Shown here in pieces: positions 1,234-5,041 of a stretch of DNA of 5,055 nucleotides. The stretch is taken from positions 1 through 5,055 of the forward strand of contig JAPYWL010000076.1 of assembly GCA_028276365.1 (NCBI GenBank), read 5' to 3'. Source of the stretch: Deltaproteobacteria bacterium. Its GTDB lineage: Bacteria > DRYD01. The notes below the pieces were generated by a model. That model saw only the letters and a list, made by a program, of their open reading frames with translations. It was not told where the DNA came from and did not search any database. Every line of letters starts with the position of its first letter. Within the stretch, counting starts at the first letter, position 1. The translations under genes were made by a program, and so were the position numbers.

Positions 1234-1280
1234 ATAAATAATACTAAGGGTAGGGTATAAATAATATTAAGGAGGAGGGT
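1234..1280. repeat. Imperfect tandem duplication that creates the ribosome binding site of the cysteine-rich ORF
   Basis: Unit 1 (1234-1256, 23 bases) and unit 2 (1257-1280, 24 bases) are head-to-tail copies. Both start ATAAATAATA, then have CTAAGGGTAGGGT in unit 1 and TTAAGGAGGAGGGT in unit 2. They differ at about three positions including one inserted base. The second copy carries the full AAGGAGGAGGG Shine-Dalgarno sequence; the first carries a degraded version with no ORF behind it. Confidence 0.75.
1269..1279 (+). promoter_or_regulatory. Strong Shine-Dalgarno sequence pointing to an ATA start codon
   Basis: AAGGAGGAGGG is an extended match to the anti-Shine-Dalgarno sequence. The last GGAGG ends at 1278, leaving 7 bases before the ATA at 1286. 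No ATG, GTG or TTG lies at a suitable distance in the frame of the cysteine-rich ORF. The nearest alternative, a GTG at 1297 in another frame, stops after four codons. The site is therefore the main evidence that the ORF is translated and for its chosen start. Confidence 0.6.
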
Positions 1281-1285
1281 AAAAT

Positions 1286-1438
1286 ATAGAAAGTAAGTGT
1301 TGCTGCTGTAAAAAGCGTGAATGTAATTGCTGTAAAGAAAGTTGTTGTTCTTGTTGTAAAAAAGAAAGCAGCGTTTGTTGTTCAGAATGTAAATGTGTTG
1401 GATGCTGTGAAAACGAAACCTGTGAATGCTGTAAATAA
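1286..1438 (+). CDS. Candidate metallothionein-like protein, 50 residues with 20 cysteines, apparent ATA start
   Basis: The reading frame encodes 50 residues, of which 20 are Cys (5-8, 13, 15-16, 20-21, 23-24, 31-32, 35, 37, 40-41, 46, 48-49). The rest is mostly Lys (8), Glu (8) and Ser (6), with no aromatic residue, His, Pro or Leu. This is metallothionein composition: a cytoplasmic metal-thiolate cluster protein that sequesters Zn, Cd or Cu(I). An 11-Cys part (5-24) and a 9-Cys part (31-49) are separated by KKESSV (25-30). Residues 16-24, CKESCCSCC, differ at one position from the CKKSCCSCC I recall in mammalian metallothioneins. It is not obviously the SmtA/BmtA type, which includes His ligands. 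An in-frame TAA at 1280-1282 limits the start to the ATA at 1286 or later; the Shine-Dalgarno sequence fits that ATA, and a single A-to-G change would make it ATG. It may share a transcript with the flanking tRNAs. Alternatives are a decayed gene, a cysteine-rich RiPP precursor (no maturation genes are seen), or a chance TGT/TGC repeat. Confidence 0.55.
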   Translation: MESKCCCCKKRECNCCKESCCSCCKKESSVCCSECKCVGCCENETCECCK

Positions 1439-1610: not shown

Positions 1611-1919
1611 ATGGAAATAAAAACCCTAATAAAAGAATGCTATAAAATAATAAAAAAATACTTACCAAAATCAAAAGTAATTTTATTTGGATCATTTGCT
1701 AAAAATCAAGCACTACCTTATTCCGATATCGACTTAGCAATTGATAATAACACTAAAATAGATCATAATATCTTCAATAAAATTAAATACGAAATAGAAG
1801 AAATAAAAACACTAAGAAATATTGATATAATAGATATAAACAATACTTCTAAGGAATTAAAAGAATCAATCTTAAAAGAAGGGATAATATTAAATGATGA
1901 AAAAATTAATTCAATTTGA
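1611..1919 (+). CDS. mntA: MNT-domain nucleotidyltransferase, antitoxin of a MntA-HepT type pair
   Basis: This 102-residue minimal nucleotidyltransferase (MNT, pol-beta superfamily) carries the full GSX10DXD signature: G27-S28 in LFGSFA and D39/D41 in YSDIDLAID. A third acidic position is available in NIDIIDIN (D72 or D75). These residues bind the metal-nucleotide, so the enzyme looks catalytically intact. Characterised MntA antitoxins transfer AMP from ATP to the active-site tyrosine of the partner HEPN RNase and silence it; applying that here is inference from the family and the neighbour. The ATG at 1611 has no Shine-Dalgarno sequence upstream (TATAAACAA). A TATAAA at 1587-1592 could be a -10 box giving a leader of about ten bases, but the -35 is weak. 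The gene overlaps the HEPN gene by 26 bases, so the two are presumably one operon. Without testing, it could also be a non-toxin MNT/HEPN pair of the HI0073/HI0074 type. Confidence 0.9.
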   Translation: MEIKTLIKECYKIIKKYLPKSKVILFGSFAKNQALPYSDIDLAIDNNTKIDHNIFNKIKYEIEEIKTLRNIDIIDINNTSKELKESILKEGIILNDEKINSI

Positions 1920-2265
1920 AAAAGCACTAAATAAATTAAAAGATATTTTAAATAAAGAAGAATCAGAAGAAATAAGAGATGCTACTATTAAAAGATTTGA
2001 ATTCACTTTTGAATTATGTTGGAAATCATTACAAGAATTTTTTAAAGAAAAAGGAATAATTTGTAGATCGCCTAAAGATTGTTTTAAACAAGCTTTTTCT
2101 TACGGATTAATAGAAAATGAAGATATATGGATAAACATTATCCAAGACAGAAACTTAACCACACATACTTACCAAGAAAAAATAGCAAAAGAAATATATC
2201 TTAAAATAAAAGAATATGTATATCACTTTGAAAAAATATTAATTAATATGAAAAAAAATCTATAA
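1894..2265 (+). CDS. hepT: HEPN-domain protein of the HI0074 / nucleotidyltransferase-substrate-binding family, candidate HepT toxin
   Basis: This 123-residue all-helical HEPN protein matches the HI0074-type family (nucleotidyltransferase substrate binding protein). Recognisable segments are RFEFTFELCWKSLQEFF (34-50), SPKDCFKQAFSYGLI (59-73), and DRNLTTHTYQEKIAKEI (85-101). The last contains the RNase signature RX4HXY: R86, H91 and Y93. In characterised HepT proteins R and H cleave RNA and the Tyr is the residue adenylylated by MntA. All three being present argues for an active RNase rather than a degenerate binder. The start is either ATG 1894 or the adjacent ATG 1897. A weak AAGGGA (1879-1884) precedes them, and the first leaves the better spacing of 9 bases. 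It overlaps the upstream MNT gene by 26 bases, which suggests coupled translation. It ends 15 bases before the end of the convergent adaptor gene. The RNA target cannot be inferred. Confidence 0.9.
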   Translation: MMKKLIQFEKALNKLKDILNKEESEEIRDATIKRFEFTFELCWKSLQEFFKEKGIICRSPKDCFKQAFSYGLIENEDIWINIIQDRNLTTHTYQEKIAKEIYLKIKEYVYHFEKILINMKKNL

Positions 2266-2280: not shown

Positions 2281-3618
2281 TTATTTTTTAATTACGTTAA
2301 CTAAAGAACCATCTACTAAAAAGTATTGCCCATCTATAACCACTAAATCTCCTTCTTCTAAATTATCAACAAGTACATCTTTCCCACTAGTTAATATAAT
2401 ATTAACTTCTTTTTTATAAGCTTTATCACCTTTTACCACAAAAATATAATTTTTATTTTCACTAAATATAATGGCTTGCCTGGGGATAATAAAACCTTGC
2501 TTAGCTAAAGTAATAATCTGTAAGCTAACATAATCGTTTTGATTTAGATCATTAGGTTCTAAAAACTTAGCTTCTAAGATATAAGTGTTATTAGCTGTTA
2601 AGGACGGATAAATAGAAGTAACTTTGGCAGTATATTTTTTATTATTAAAATAAGCAAAAGCAATAGTATTAATTGGGATTTTTTTAGCATCAATATCAGA
2701 AACATTAGCTTGTATAATCTTAGATTTTTGATTACCTACAATAAAAGCAACTAAAGAAGGGCTAACAATACTACCTACATCAATATTCTTTTTAAGTACT
2801 ACCCCATCCACAGGACTAACTAATTTAGAATCATTTAAATAAGTTAGGCTCAACTGATAAGCATTATAAAGGTTTTGCATATTATAGTAAGCAGCTTTTA
2901 ATTGATTTTGTACTATTTGTAATCTATCTTTCTTTAGTTTAGCTACATTATAATTTTCTTTAGCTTGTTCTAAAGCATATAATGCATTATAGTAATTCGT
3001 TAAGCTATTTTGATATTGTAATTTAATATTTTCATAATTAGAAGCAGAGATAGCACCATTATTATATAAAATAGTATATCTTTCGAAATCTTTTTTAGCT
3101 TGATATAAAATAGTTTTAGTTAATTCAACATTAGTTTTAGCTTGATTAATAGCAATGATAGACTTAGCTAAATCGGAATCTACTTGAACCTTCTGAATAT
3201 TATAATTACTAAGAGCTTGTTCATAATTAGATTTAGCTGTATTATAAGCTTCATACGCTTGCTTTATTTGATAATTAATAGCCTCTATGTCTAAGTCAGC
3301 TAAAAGCTGCCCCTTACTTATTTGTTGCCCTTCTGAAACATAAACATTTTTCACCTTCCCATTTATTTTAAACCCTAAATTAGAAGTTATTTTATAAACT
3401 ACTTTAGCATCTATATCCAAAAAATTAGCTAAACTACCTTTCTTAGCTTCTATAACCAATACAGGAGTTTTGGATTCACCTTTAGCACTAACTTTATCTT
3501 GTACTTTATTAGAATTACAAGAAAAAATATTTAATAAAATAAAAACTACTAAAAACAAATGGACTAATTTTAAGTTTTTATTTTTTAAGTATAATTCTTT
3601 TAAATTAATTTTACTCAT
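2281..3618 (-). CDS. Periplasmic adaptor (membrane fusion) lipoprotein of a tripartite efflux system, HlyD/AcrA family
   Basis: The protein has 445 residues. A hydrophobic N-terminal segment (about 18-33) ends in IFSC, a plausible lipobox with C34 as the lipidated residue, so it is probably an inner-membrane-anchored periplasmic lipoprotein. The first lipoyl half is GFKINGKVKNVYVSEGQQ onward (82-110) and the second LVSPVDGVVLKKNIDVGS onward (266-296). Between them lies a helical hairpin of about 155 residues rich in Ala, Asn, Tyr and Gln. Its midpoint has R180, L184 and S191 in RYTILYNNGAIS, with the spacing of the AcrA R-L-S motif that contacts TolC. A beta-barrel (about 300-370) and membrane-proximal domain (about 371-445, with IIPRQAI) follow. 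Adaptors bridge an inner-membrane pump and the outer-membrane factor. The ATG has AGGAGG (3631-3626) 7 bases upstream, and the gene starts 19 bases after the TolC-like gene. The exported substrate is unknown and no pump gene is visible. Confidence 0.93.
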   Translation of the reverse strand: MSKINLKELYLKNKNLKLVHLFLVVFILLNIFSCNSNKVQDKVSAKGESKTPVLVIEAKKGSLANFLDIDAKVVYKITSNLGFKINGKVKNVYVSEGQQISKGQLLADLDIEAINYQIKQAYEAYNTAKSNYEQALSNYNIQKVQVDSDLAKSIIAINQAKTNVELTKTILYQAKKDFERYTILYNNGAISASNYENIKLQYQNSLTNYYNALYALEQAKENYNVAKLKKDRLQIVQNQLKAAYYNMQNLYNAYQLSLTYLNDSKLVSPVDGVVLKKNIDVGSIVSPSLVAFIVGNQKSKIIQANVSDIDAKKIPINTIAFAYFNNKKYTAKVTSIYPSLTANNTYILEAKFLEPNDLNQNDYVSLQIITLAKQGFIIPRQAIIFSENKNYIFVVKGDKAYKKEVNIILTSGKDVLVDNLEEGDLVVIDGQYFLVDGSLVNVIKK

Positions 3619-3637: not shown

Positions 3638-5041
3638 TTATTTAATTATTTTAAAAAAGTAATTTAAGAAATTATTTAGATTTAAATCAACATCATTATA
3701 ATAAAGAATGTAAACATAATTAAGAAGCAGATCAGATTTAGTATTATTTAAATTTAATTCAGATTGAAGTAAAGAGTTTTGAGAATCTAAATATTCTAAA
3801 TAAGTAGATAATCCATTTTCATATCTTAATTTAGTAACTCTAAAAAGTTCTTTTTGATAATTAAAAGTTCTATAATAAGAAATTAAAGAATTATAGTTAT
3901 TAATAAACTTAGTTTTATAATTACTTTTAGCTAAATCCAAATTAATTATTAATCTCTTGTAATCTTGATATAAAGAGTCTATATTTTGTAAGAGAATTTG
4001 CTTATTATAATAAGAGTTGCCAGAATCAAATAATTTCCAAGACAAAGATAGATTAATATTAAAGTTATAATCTCTAGAAAAACCAGTAGGCTTATGCTTA
4101 TCATAAGTAGCAGTTAATAATAATTTTGGAGCATTCTGATAATTTAGGGCTTTAGCTTGATATTTTAAAGCTTCAATTGAAGAATACAAAATTCTTGAAA
4201 TTAGTAAATCTTTGGGATCTTTATTTAATTCATTTAAATAAGCTAAATCAATATTGAGATTGTTATCTTTTAAGTAAATTTTGTCTTGATAATTACCTTT
4301 ATATATGTAAGTAATAAAAGAGTCTATATTAAAATTATTTTCGGTAGTATTTAAAAATGAAAGTAAAGATTGCTTTGCTAACATATAATTATCCTTGGCT
4401 ATAATATTTTGAGTTAAAGATTCTTGGTAAACAGATTGAGCTTTAATATAATCTAACTTAGGTAAAACACCAACAGAATATAAATTATATGTAGTTTTAA
4501 GAAACTCATTTGTATAATTAATTAAATTATATGTATAATCTAAAAAATCTTTAGCTTTAATAACATTAGACATTAATTCATAAAATTTCAGATAATTATC
4601 ATTTAAAGTTTGTTGATTTTTTAAGTATTTTGAATAATAATTTATTTGCTTAGAAATAATAATATTCTCAAGAAAATTAAACGAATAAAGCAATTTTGTT
4701 AATCTTAATCCATAATTATAAGTATAATCATTAGAAATATTAATCGTATTAGGGCCAATATTAATCTTAACAGTTGGTTGATTATAACCATAATTATAAT
4801 ACGATTCTAAATTAACACCATATTGAGAATAAGCCAATTTTAAATCATAATAAGCACTATATAATTCATCCTTAGCTTTTTTTACCTCAGGAATACTATA
4901 TATTAACTCAGAAATCATATTACTATAATAATAATAATCCTTAAGCTTATCATTGTTATTAGCAAAAGATAATTTAAAAACAATTAAAAAAACAATAAAG
5001 ATAAGAAAAATATATTTAACAATATCTATTTTTTTTTGCAT
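3638..5041 (-). CDS. TolC-like outer-membrane efflux protein (outer membrane factor)
   Basis: The 467-residue length is typical for the OEP/TolC family. A signal peptide has a basic start (MQKKIDIVKY), a hydrophobic core (11-23) and a probable cleavage near LSFA-NN (residues 27/28), so the mature protein goes to the outer membrane. The family's two homologous halves are visible. In the first half, YSVGVLPKLDYIKAQ (188-202) is followed by a long helix; the matching part of the second half is RYENGLSTYLEYLDSQ (406-421). A beta-strand pair typical of the family carries LSWKLFDSGNSYYNKQ (333-348). Trimers form a beta-barrel plus an alpha-helical tunnel through the periplasm. The protein is notably rich in Tyr and Asn, partly reflecting AT-rich codons. 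The ATG has AGGAGG (5052-5047) 5 bases upstream. The adaptor gene follows 19 bases after its stop, so the two form an operon whose promoter lies right of the window. Confidence 0.93.
   Translation of the reverse strand: MQKKIDIVKYIFLIFIVFLIVFKLSFANNNDKLKDYYYYSNMISELIYSIPEVKKAKDELYSAYYDLKLAYSQYGVNLESYYNYGYNQPTVKINIGPNTINISNDYTYNYGLRLTKLLYSFNFLENIIISKQINYYSKYLKNQQTLNDNYLKFYELMSNVIKAKDFLDYTYNLINYTNEFLKTTYNLYSVGVLPKLDYIKAQSVYQESLTQNIIAKDNYMLAKQSLLSFLNTTENNFNIDSFITYIYKGNYQDKIYLKDNNLNIDLAYLNELNKDPKDLLISRILYSSIEALKYQAKALNYQNAPKLLLTATYDKHKPTGFSRDYNFNINLSLSWKLFDSGNSYYNKQILLQNIDSLYQDYKRLIINLDLAKSNYKTKFINNYNSLISYYRTFNYQKELFRVTKLRYENGLSTYLEYLDSQNSLLQSELNLNNTKSDLLLNYVYILYYNDVDLNLNNFLNYFFKIIK

Follow-up and report, generated by a model that had tools for sequence, protein, structure and literature searches.

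A hot-spring bacterial lineage of a rarely sampled phylum carries, between two tRNA genes, a gene for a small protein of which two residues in five are cysteine. Judging from its sequence, this protein very probably wraps metal ions as animal metallothioneins do, and it matched no known metallothionein family. We analyzed the complete 5,055-base contig that harbors the gene (C55; hereafter, the window), which belongs to a draft genome of 1.59 Mb in 124 contigs that is 87% complete, and compared seven genomes of the phylum, one of which (G001; the sister) is the other member of the genus. In all likelihood purifying selection maintains the gene, and its product is a metallothionein-like protein whose family is absent from the libraries that we searched.

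A cysteine-rich gene kept in sequence and place within the genus

The open reading frame (ORF) at positions 1286–1438 of the plus strand translates to IESKCCCCKKRECNCCKESCCSCCKKESSVCCSECKCVGCCENETCECCK, 50 residues followed by a TAA stop codon at 1436–1438. Its 20 cysteines (15 TGT and 5 TGC codons), which make up 40% of the residues, are arranged as one CCCC and six CC pairs, amounting to nine CC and four CxC steps in all, and are split 11 + 9 around the string KKESSV; the counts given in a preliminary description of the locus are all correct. Lysine, glutamate and serine act as spacers, and the protein lacks histidine, aromatic residues and any hydrophobic signal-like stretch. It thus falls within the broad metallothionein class, which comprises Cys-rich proteins shorter than about 100 residues that have CC and CxC motifs and few or no aromatic residues. 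When we counted cysteines in 50-codon stretches of open frames of at least 30 codons, the maximum in 200 dinucleotide-shuffled contigs was 7, as compared with 20 in the real ORF; when the ORF itself was shuffled, fewer than 3% of the shuffled versions stayed free of stops, and none of these had more than 11 cysteines. We found no tandem repeat inside the ORF, which gives no support to the earlier suggestion that the gene arose from simple Cys-rich repeats. Because the antisense of Thr-rich repeats can yield Cys-rich frames in these genomes, conservation, and not composition, is the decisive evidence.

That evidence comes from the sister genome (locus L002, 1498–1647; public contig CAKZQG010000004.1, read set SRR5214706), where a syntenic orthologue lies in the same order of tRNA-Arg, ORF and tRNA-Gln. 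The genome is labeled RSA_SRR5214706_50 in a comparison of hot springs (PMC7692377), which we take to denote a spring in South Africa at about 50 °C. The sister product, MENKCCCCEKCECNCCKDSCCSCCKEEKTLCCSECKCSECCDTENCECR, has 49 residues and 20 cysteines and is about 69–70% identical to the window protein; phmmer retrieves it at an E value of 2e-10, and it was the only match in a search of the genome contigs; the family comprises these two sequences. In the alignment of the two, 19 of the 21 cysteine columns are common to both proteins, as against 15 of the 28 other columns, which on two sequences indicates purifying selection on the cysteine positions. The codon comparison gives 22 identical, 12 synonymous (seven of the silent changes being swaps between TGT and TGC) and 15 nonsynonymous codons; third codon positions hold 20 of the 33 base changes, and in the sense frame dN is 0.14–0.16 with dS saturated or about 2.9. 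Nucleotide identity is 76% in the ORF, about 52–54% in both flanking gaps and 80% in a neighboring transferase gene, and no other sense frame at the ORF is conserved between window and sister. The preliminary description had proposed a coding gene of metallothionein-like composition and had pointed to frame integrity, cysteine conservation and an excess of synonymous change in relatives as the way to check it; in the one available relative, the frame is intact, the cysteines are kept and silent change is saturated. Since the sense frame is conserved and the antisense frame of the sister is without a usable start codon, we read the ORF as a gene of the plus strand that is almost certainly coding. 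These findings demonstrate that the cysteine positions are the most conserved part of the protein and that the gene has been kept in sequence and place within the genus.

The placement between two tRNA genes, noted at the outset from the letters, was borne out by ARAGORN and Rfam, which locate tRNA-Arg(TCT) at 1155–1230 upstream of the ORF and tRNA-Gln(TTG) at 1482–1553 downstream, both on the plus strand and separated from the ORF by 55 and 43 bases, respectively. In the sister, the tRNA-Arg gene is identical over 75 bases and the tRNA-Gln gene at 71 of 72, and both loci have in common wecB and a sugar transferase gene on the opposite strand before tRNA-Arg. A scan of positions 1000–1700 that assumes σ70-type sites revealed no promoter-like site on the plus strand and no terminator-like site. 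Given the shared strand, the short gaps and the lack of such sites between the genes, we infer that the ORF lies on a single transcript with both tRNAs. Beyond tRNA-Gln, the window contains a nucleotidyltransferase gene and an HI0074/HepT-like gene (1611–1919 and 1894–2265, plus strand), a pair of the MntA/HepT toxin–antitoxin kind whose MntA match is below the cut-off; the pair is absent there in the sister, and this site is therefore variable. On the minus strand follow genes for an RND efflux adaptor (TIGR01730, with some CzcB/CusB likeness; 2281–3618) and a TolC-family outer membrane protein (3638–5041), with no pump gene before the end of the contig. Because neither gene is seen at the sister locus, we claim no link between them and the Cys-rich gene. 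No metal-responsive regulator adjoins the ORF, and no conserved metal-resistance gene lies beside it, at the window and sister loci.

Relation to known metallothioneins

To our knowledge, few bacterial metallothioneins have a known function, and those that have been described are either SmtA-like or MymT, the latter of which has fewer cysteines than the window protein. Searches with the window protein gave no match in Pfam, PHROGs or PDB sequences up to an E value of 10, or in NCBIfam up to 1. Such negative results carry less weight than they normally would, since correction for composition strips most of the score; BLASTP of the window protein against its about 70%-identical orthologue gave only E = 40, whereas phmmer, as noted, still retrieves it. 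The window protein shares with SmtA and BmtA (PF02069) a bacterial origin, a small size, richness in cysteine and a proposed metal-holding role, but the clusters of SmtA and BmtA are built from about nine cysteines plus histidine in a zinc-finger-like fold (PMC7387436, PMC7558416), whereas the window protein offers 20 cysteines and neither histidine ligands nor aromatic residues. No PF02069 match was found in any of the seven phylum genomes, in a search whose control recovered the Synechococcus protein, and this result, together with the lack of any other Pfam match, rules out the SmtA type, as had been anticipated. MymT of Mycobacterium tuberculosis is comparable in that it, too, was a small unannotated Cys-rich ORF, later proven to be a copper metallothionein (PMC7558416); it differs in its locus and gives no Pfam-level match to the window protein.

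The likeness to vertebrate metallothioneins (rat MT2, PF00131) consists of 20 cysteines, the lack of aromatic residues, richness in lysine and serine, and the strings CCSCC and CKxSCCSCC; the motif CKKSCCSCC, which the preliminary description gave for the mammalian protein, is present in rat MT2 (4mt2). However, the window protein has nine CC and four CxC steps in 50 residues, as compared with three CC and seven CxC steps in the 61 residues of rat MT2. In a control, an MT2 query sequence matched 12 metallothionein chains in the PDB, including rat MT2. Scores of the ORF against MT2, the MT2 halves and a domain-swapped MT2 were inside the range of Cys-preserving shuffles, and the best case, that of the sister protein against the beta half, was matched by 25 of 1,000 such shuffles, so that we detect no profile or sequence match to vertebrate metallothioneins beyond cysteine composition. 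Moreover, of positions 11 and 49, only the latter is a cysteine in the window protein and only the former in the sister protein, whose cysteines consequently divide 12 + 8 rather than 11 + 9, and the vertebrate arrangement of two domains with 9 and 11 cysteines does not describe the pair. The idea that the protein carries the two animal clusters in reverse order is ruled out by the sister split together with the Cys-preserving shuffles, above which the MT2 scores do not clearly rise.

Ciliate Cd-metallothioneins place most of their cysteines in CC and CCC runs and have CxCCK closing segments (PMC1808422, PMC4862169). The CxCCK motif occurs three times in the window protein, a count found in 0.2% of shuffles, and twice in the sister protein (2% of shuffles). 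The resemblance to the subfamily 7a Cd-metallothioneins of Tetrahymena, compared by description, lies in CC and CCC runs (the window protein has a CCCC) and CxCCK ends and is one of motif style only: the ciliate proteins are mostly about 100–180 residues long, with several modules and about 24–30% cysteine, whereas the window protein is bacterial, has 50 residues and is 40% cysteine. In its cysteine style, the window protein seems nearer to the ciliate Cd-metallothioneins, presumably by convergence.

Start codon and alternative readings

The window ORF contains no in-frame ATG, GTG or TTG. Its sole near-cognate start is the ATA at 1286, and a stop codon lies two codons before it. The sister ORF opens with an ATG, nine bases after AGGAGGT, and the window ATA aligns exactly with this ATG. 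The claim in the preliminary description that the gene is without a standard start codon thus stands for the window copy, which has ATA only, and fails for the family. On the 5' side of the ATA there is an extended Shine–Dalgarno (SD) sequence, GGAGGAGGGT (1271–1280, plus strand), the sister counterpart of which, AGGAGGTAGG, precedes the ATG. The window leader (1234–1286, plus strand) comprises 2.3 copies of a duplicated 23-base unit, with a weak SD in the first copy and a strong SD in the second; by reading, this duplication is not in the sister. The gene infC often starts at near-cognate codons. In the window genome (L063, C4:3881–4375) and the sister, infC reads SD-ATA-ATT-AAG and lacks a canonical start; the matching position in another genus is an ATC, and the SD is good throughout (three genomes in all: L063, L064 and L065). 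Near-cognate initiation is therefore likely in this lineage. In Staphylococcus aureus, infC, ccpN and citZ use AUA starts, those of ccpN and citZ being measured at roughly 10–30% of AUG, and extended SD motifs are found at infC and ccpN (PMC13009471). An AUA start of the window ORF is plausible in light of these S. aureus genes and of the ATA that opens infC here, and we think it fairly probable that this start is in use in the window species.

Being without a canonical start, the window copy could instead be silenced. The ATA sits exactly where the sister has its ATG, and no alternative in-frame start exists, which is consistent with a gene that is dying or silenced in the window species through a change of ATG to ATA, or with a single-base consensus error in the metagenome-assembled genome. 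However, the window copy has retained its 20 cysteines, an unbroken frame and a strong SD; ATA also seems to serve as the start of infC in that genome; and a consensus error that hits exactly the start codon is a priori unlikely. We consider silencing or error unlikely, but worth keeping in view beside translation from the AUA.

Other readings accept the frame but not the metal, or dispense with the gene altogether. The ORF is short and has runs of Cys codons, as would a cysteine-sensing leader ORF on which ribosome stalling controls a downstream gene, and Cys-rich regulatory short ORFs exist in mycobacteria (PMC9094748); nevertheless, the next gene is tRNA-Gln and not a cysteine or sulfur gene, constraint spans the whole sequence and not just a Cys run near its end, and we found no terminator-like hairpin, all of which makes a leader ORF very improbable. 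A Cys-rich RiPP precursor, destined for modification rather than metal binding, would likewise be small and rich in cysteine and serine, yet the product has no leader–core division, and the neighbors shared by the two loci (wecB, the sugar transferase and the tRNAs) include neither a conserved maturation enzyme nor a dedicated exporter; we regard this reading as a shade less probable still. A chance Cys-rich frame, for example the antisense of a Gln/Leu-coding ORF, might be suspected because in window and sister alike the antisense frame is open, with mirrored constraint (dN 0.139, dS 1.34), and because a Cys-rich frame elsewhere (L043) is such an artefact. The antisense constraint mirrors that of the sense frame since third positions coincide, and the sister antisense has no start codon that gives at least 40 residues, whereas the sense frame has an SD, an ATG in the sister and a conserved stop, and a density of cysteines that contig shuffles never approached. 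We accordingly place next to no weight on chance.

Proposed function and distribution

Metallothioneins are soluble peptides without a folded core that bind soft metals through Cys thiolates, serve in buffering or detoxification and fold only with metal. For the window protein, a metal-thiolate function is highly likely from its composition and cysteine pattern. In the mechanism that we propose, the ORF would be transcribed together with tRNA-Arg and tRNA-Gln, and the normal tRNA end-processing enzymes would free its message from the shared transcript. Translation would begin at AUG in the sister and, at reduced strength, at the AUA behind the extended SD in the window species. The soluble, coreless peptide would then enclose soft metals, either Zn/Cd or Cu(I), in clusters formed by the thiolates of its 20 cysteines and so buffer or detoxify metal in the cytoplasm. 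The position of the gene inside a tRNA unit suggests a supply that is constitutive and growth-linked rather than metal-induced. More tentatively, the gene may represent a family of bacterial metallothioneins that arose independently and is restricted to a single genus of this little-sampled phylum. Such a family would have as many cysteines as the animal proteins (20, in 50 residues), be denser in them than the bacterial metallothioneins described in the cited studies and be expressed inside a tRNA unit, with an AUA start and extended SD in one species, so that its supply could follow tRNA transcription and the level of IF3 and not a metal sensor. If true, a protein that is 40% cysteine, restricted to one genus and unmatched by any family would cleanly exemplify the convergent origin of metal-thiolate proteins. 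The case also illustrates why such genes go unseen: the frame is short, the start may be AUA, and searches correct for composition.

A profile search did not find the gene in the other five phylum genomes, and it is therefore not essential to the lineage. Among 386 genomes across the domain (the seven of the phylum and 379 more), only the two genus members have it, and there was no match in plasmids and phages (tblastn with the low-complexity filter on) or in viral contigs. This distribution looks like a gain at the level of the genus, or loss elsewhere, the draft genomes being incomplete. The pattern CCxCC occurs at 119 places in the phylum, fewer than half of which were inspected (30 automatically taken loci and 20 chosen ones, clustered matches first); among those inspected, we found no gene-like second frame with at least nine cysteines, the readings being short and startless or out of frame. 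The open frame with 27 cysteines at L043 (G001:C15:32800–33900, about 466–690) was rejected because it only reads a Thr-rich repeat linker (TTTAPTTTT) in antisense, a pitfall for any scan aimed at Cys-rich frames. Within the examined flank of tRNA-Arg(TCT), the family's other genus has no tRNA-Gln. There, a 223-residue ORF adjoins tRNA-Arg(TCT) (L007, 820–1491, minus strand; L008, 1628–2299, plus strand), and by eye its product resembles a deacetylase of the LmbE/PIG-L group and the bacillithiol (BshB) type.
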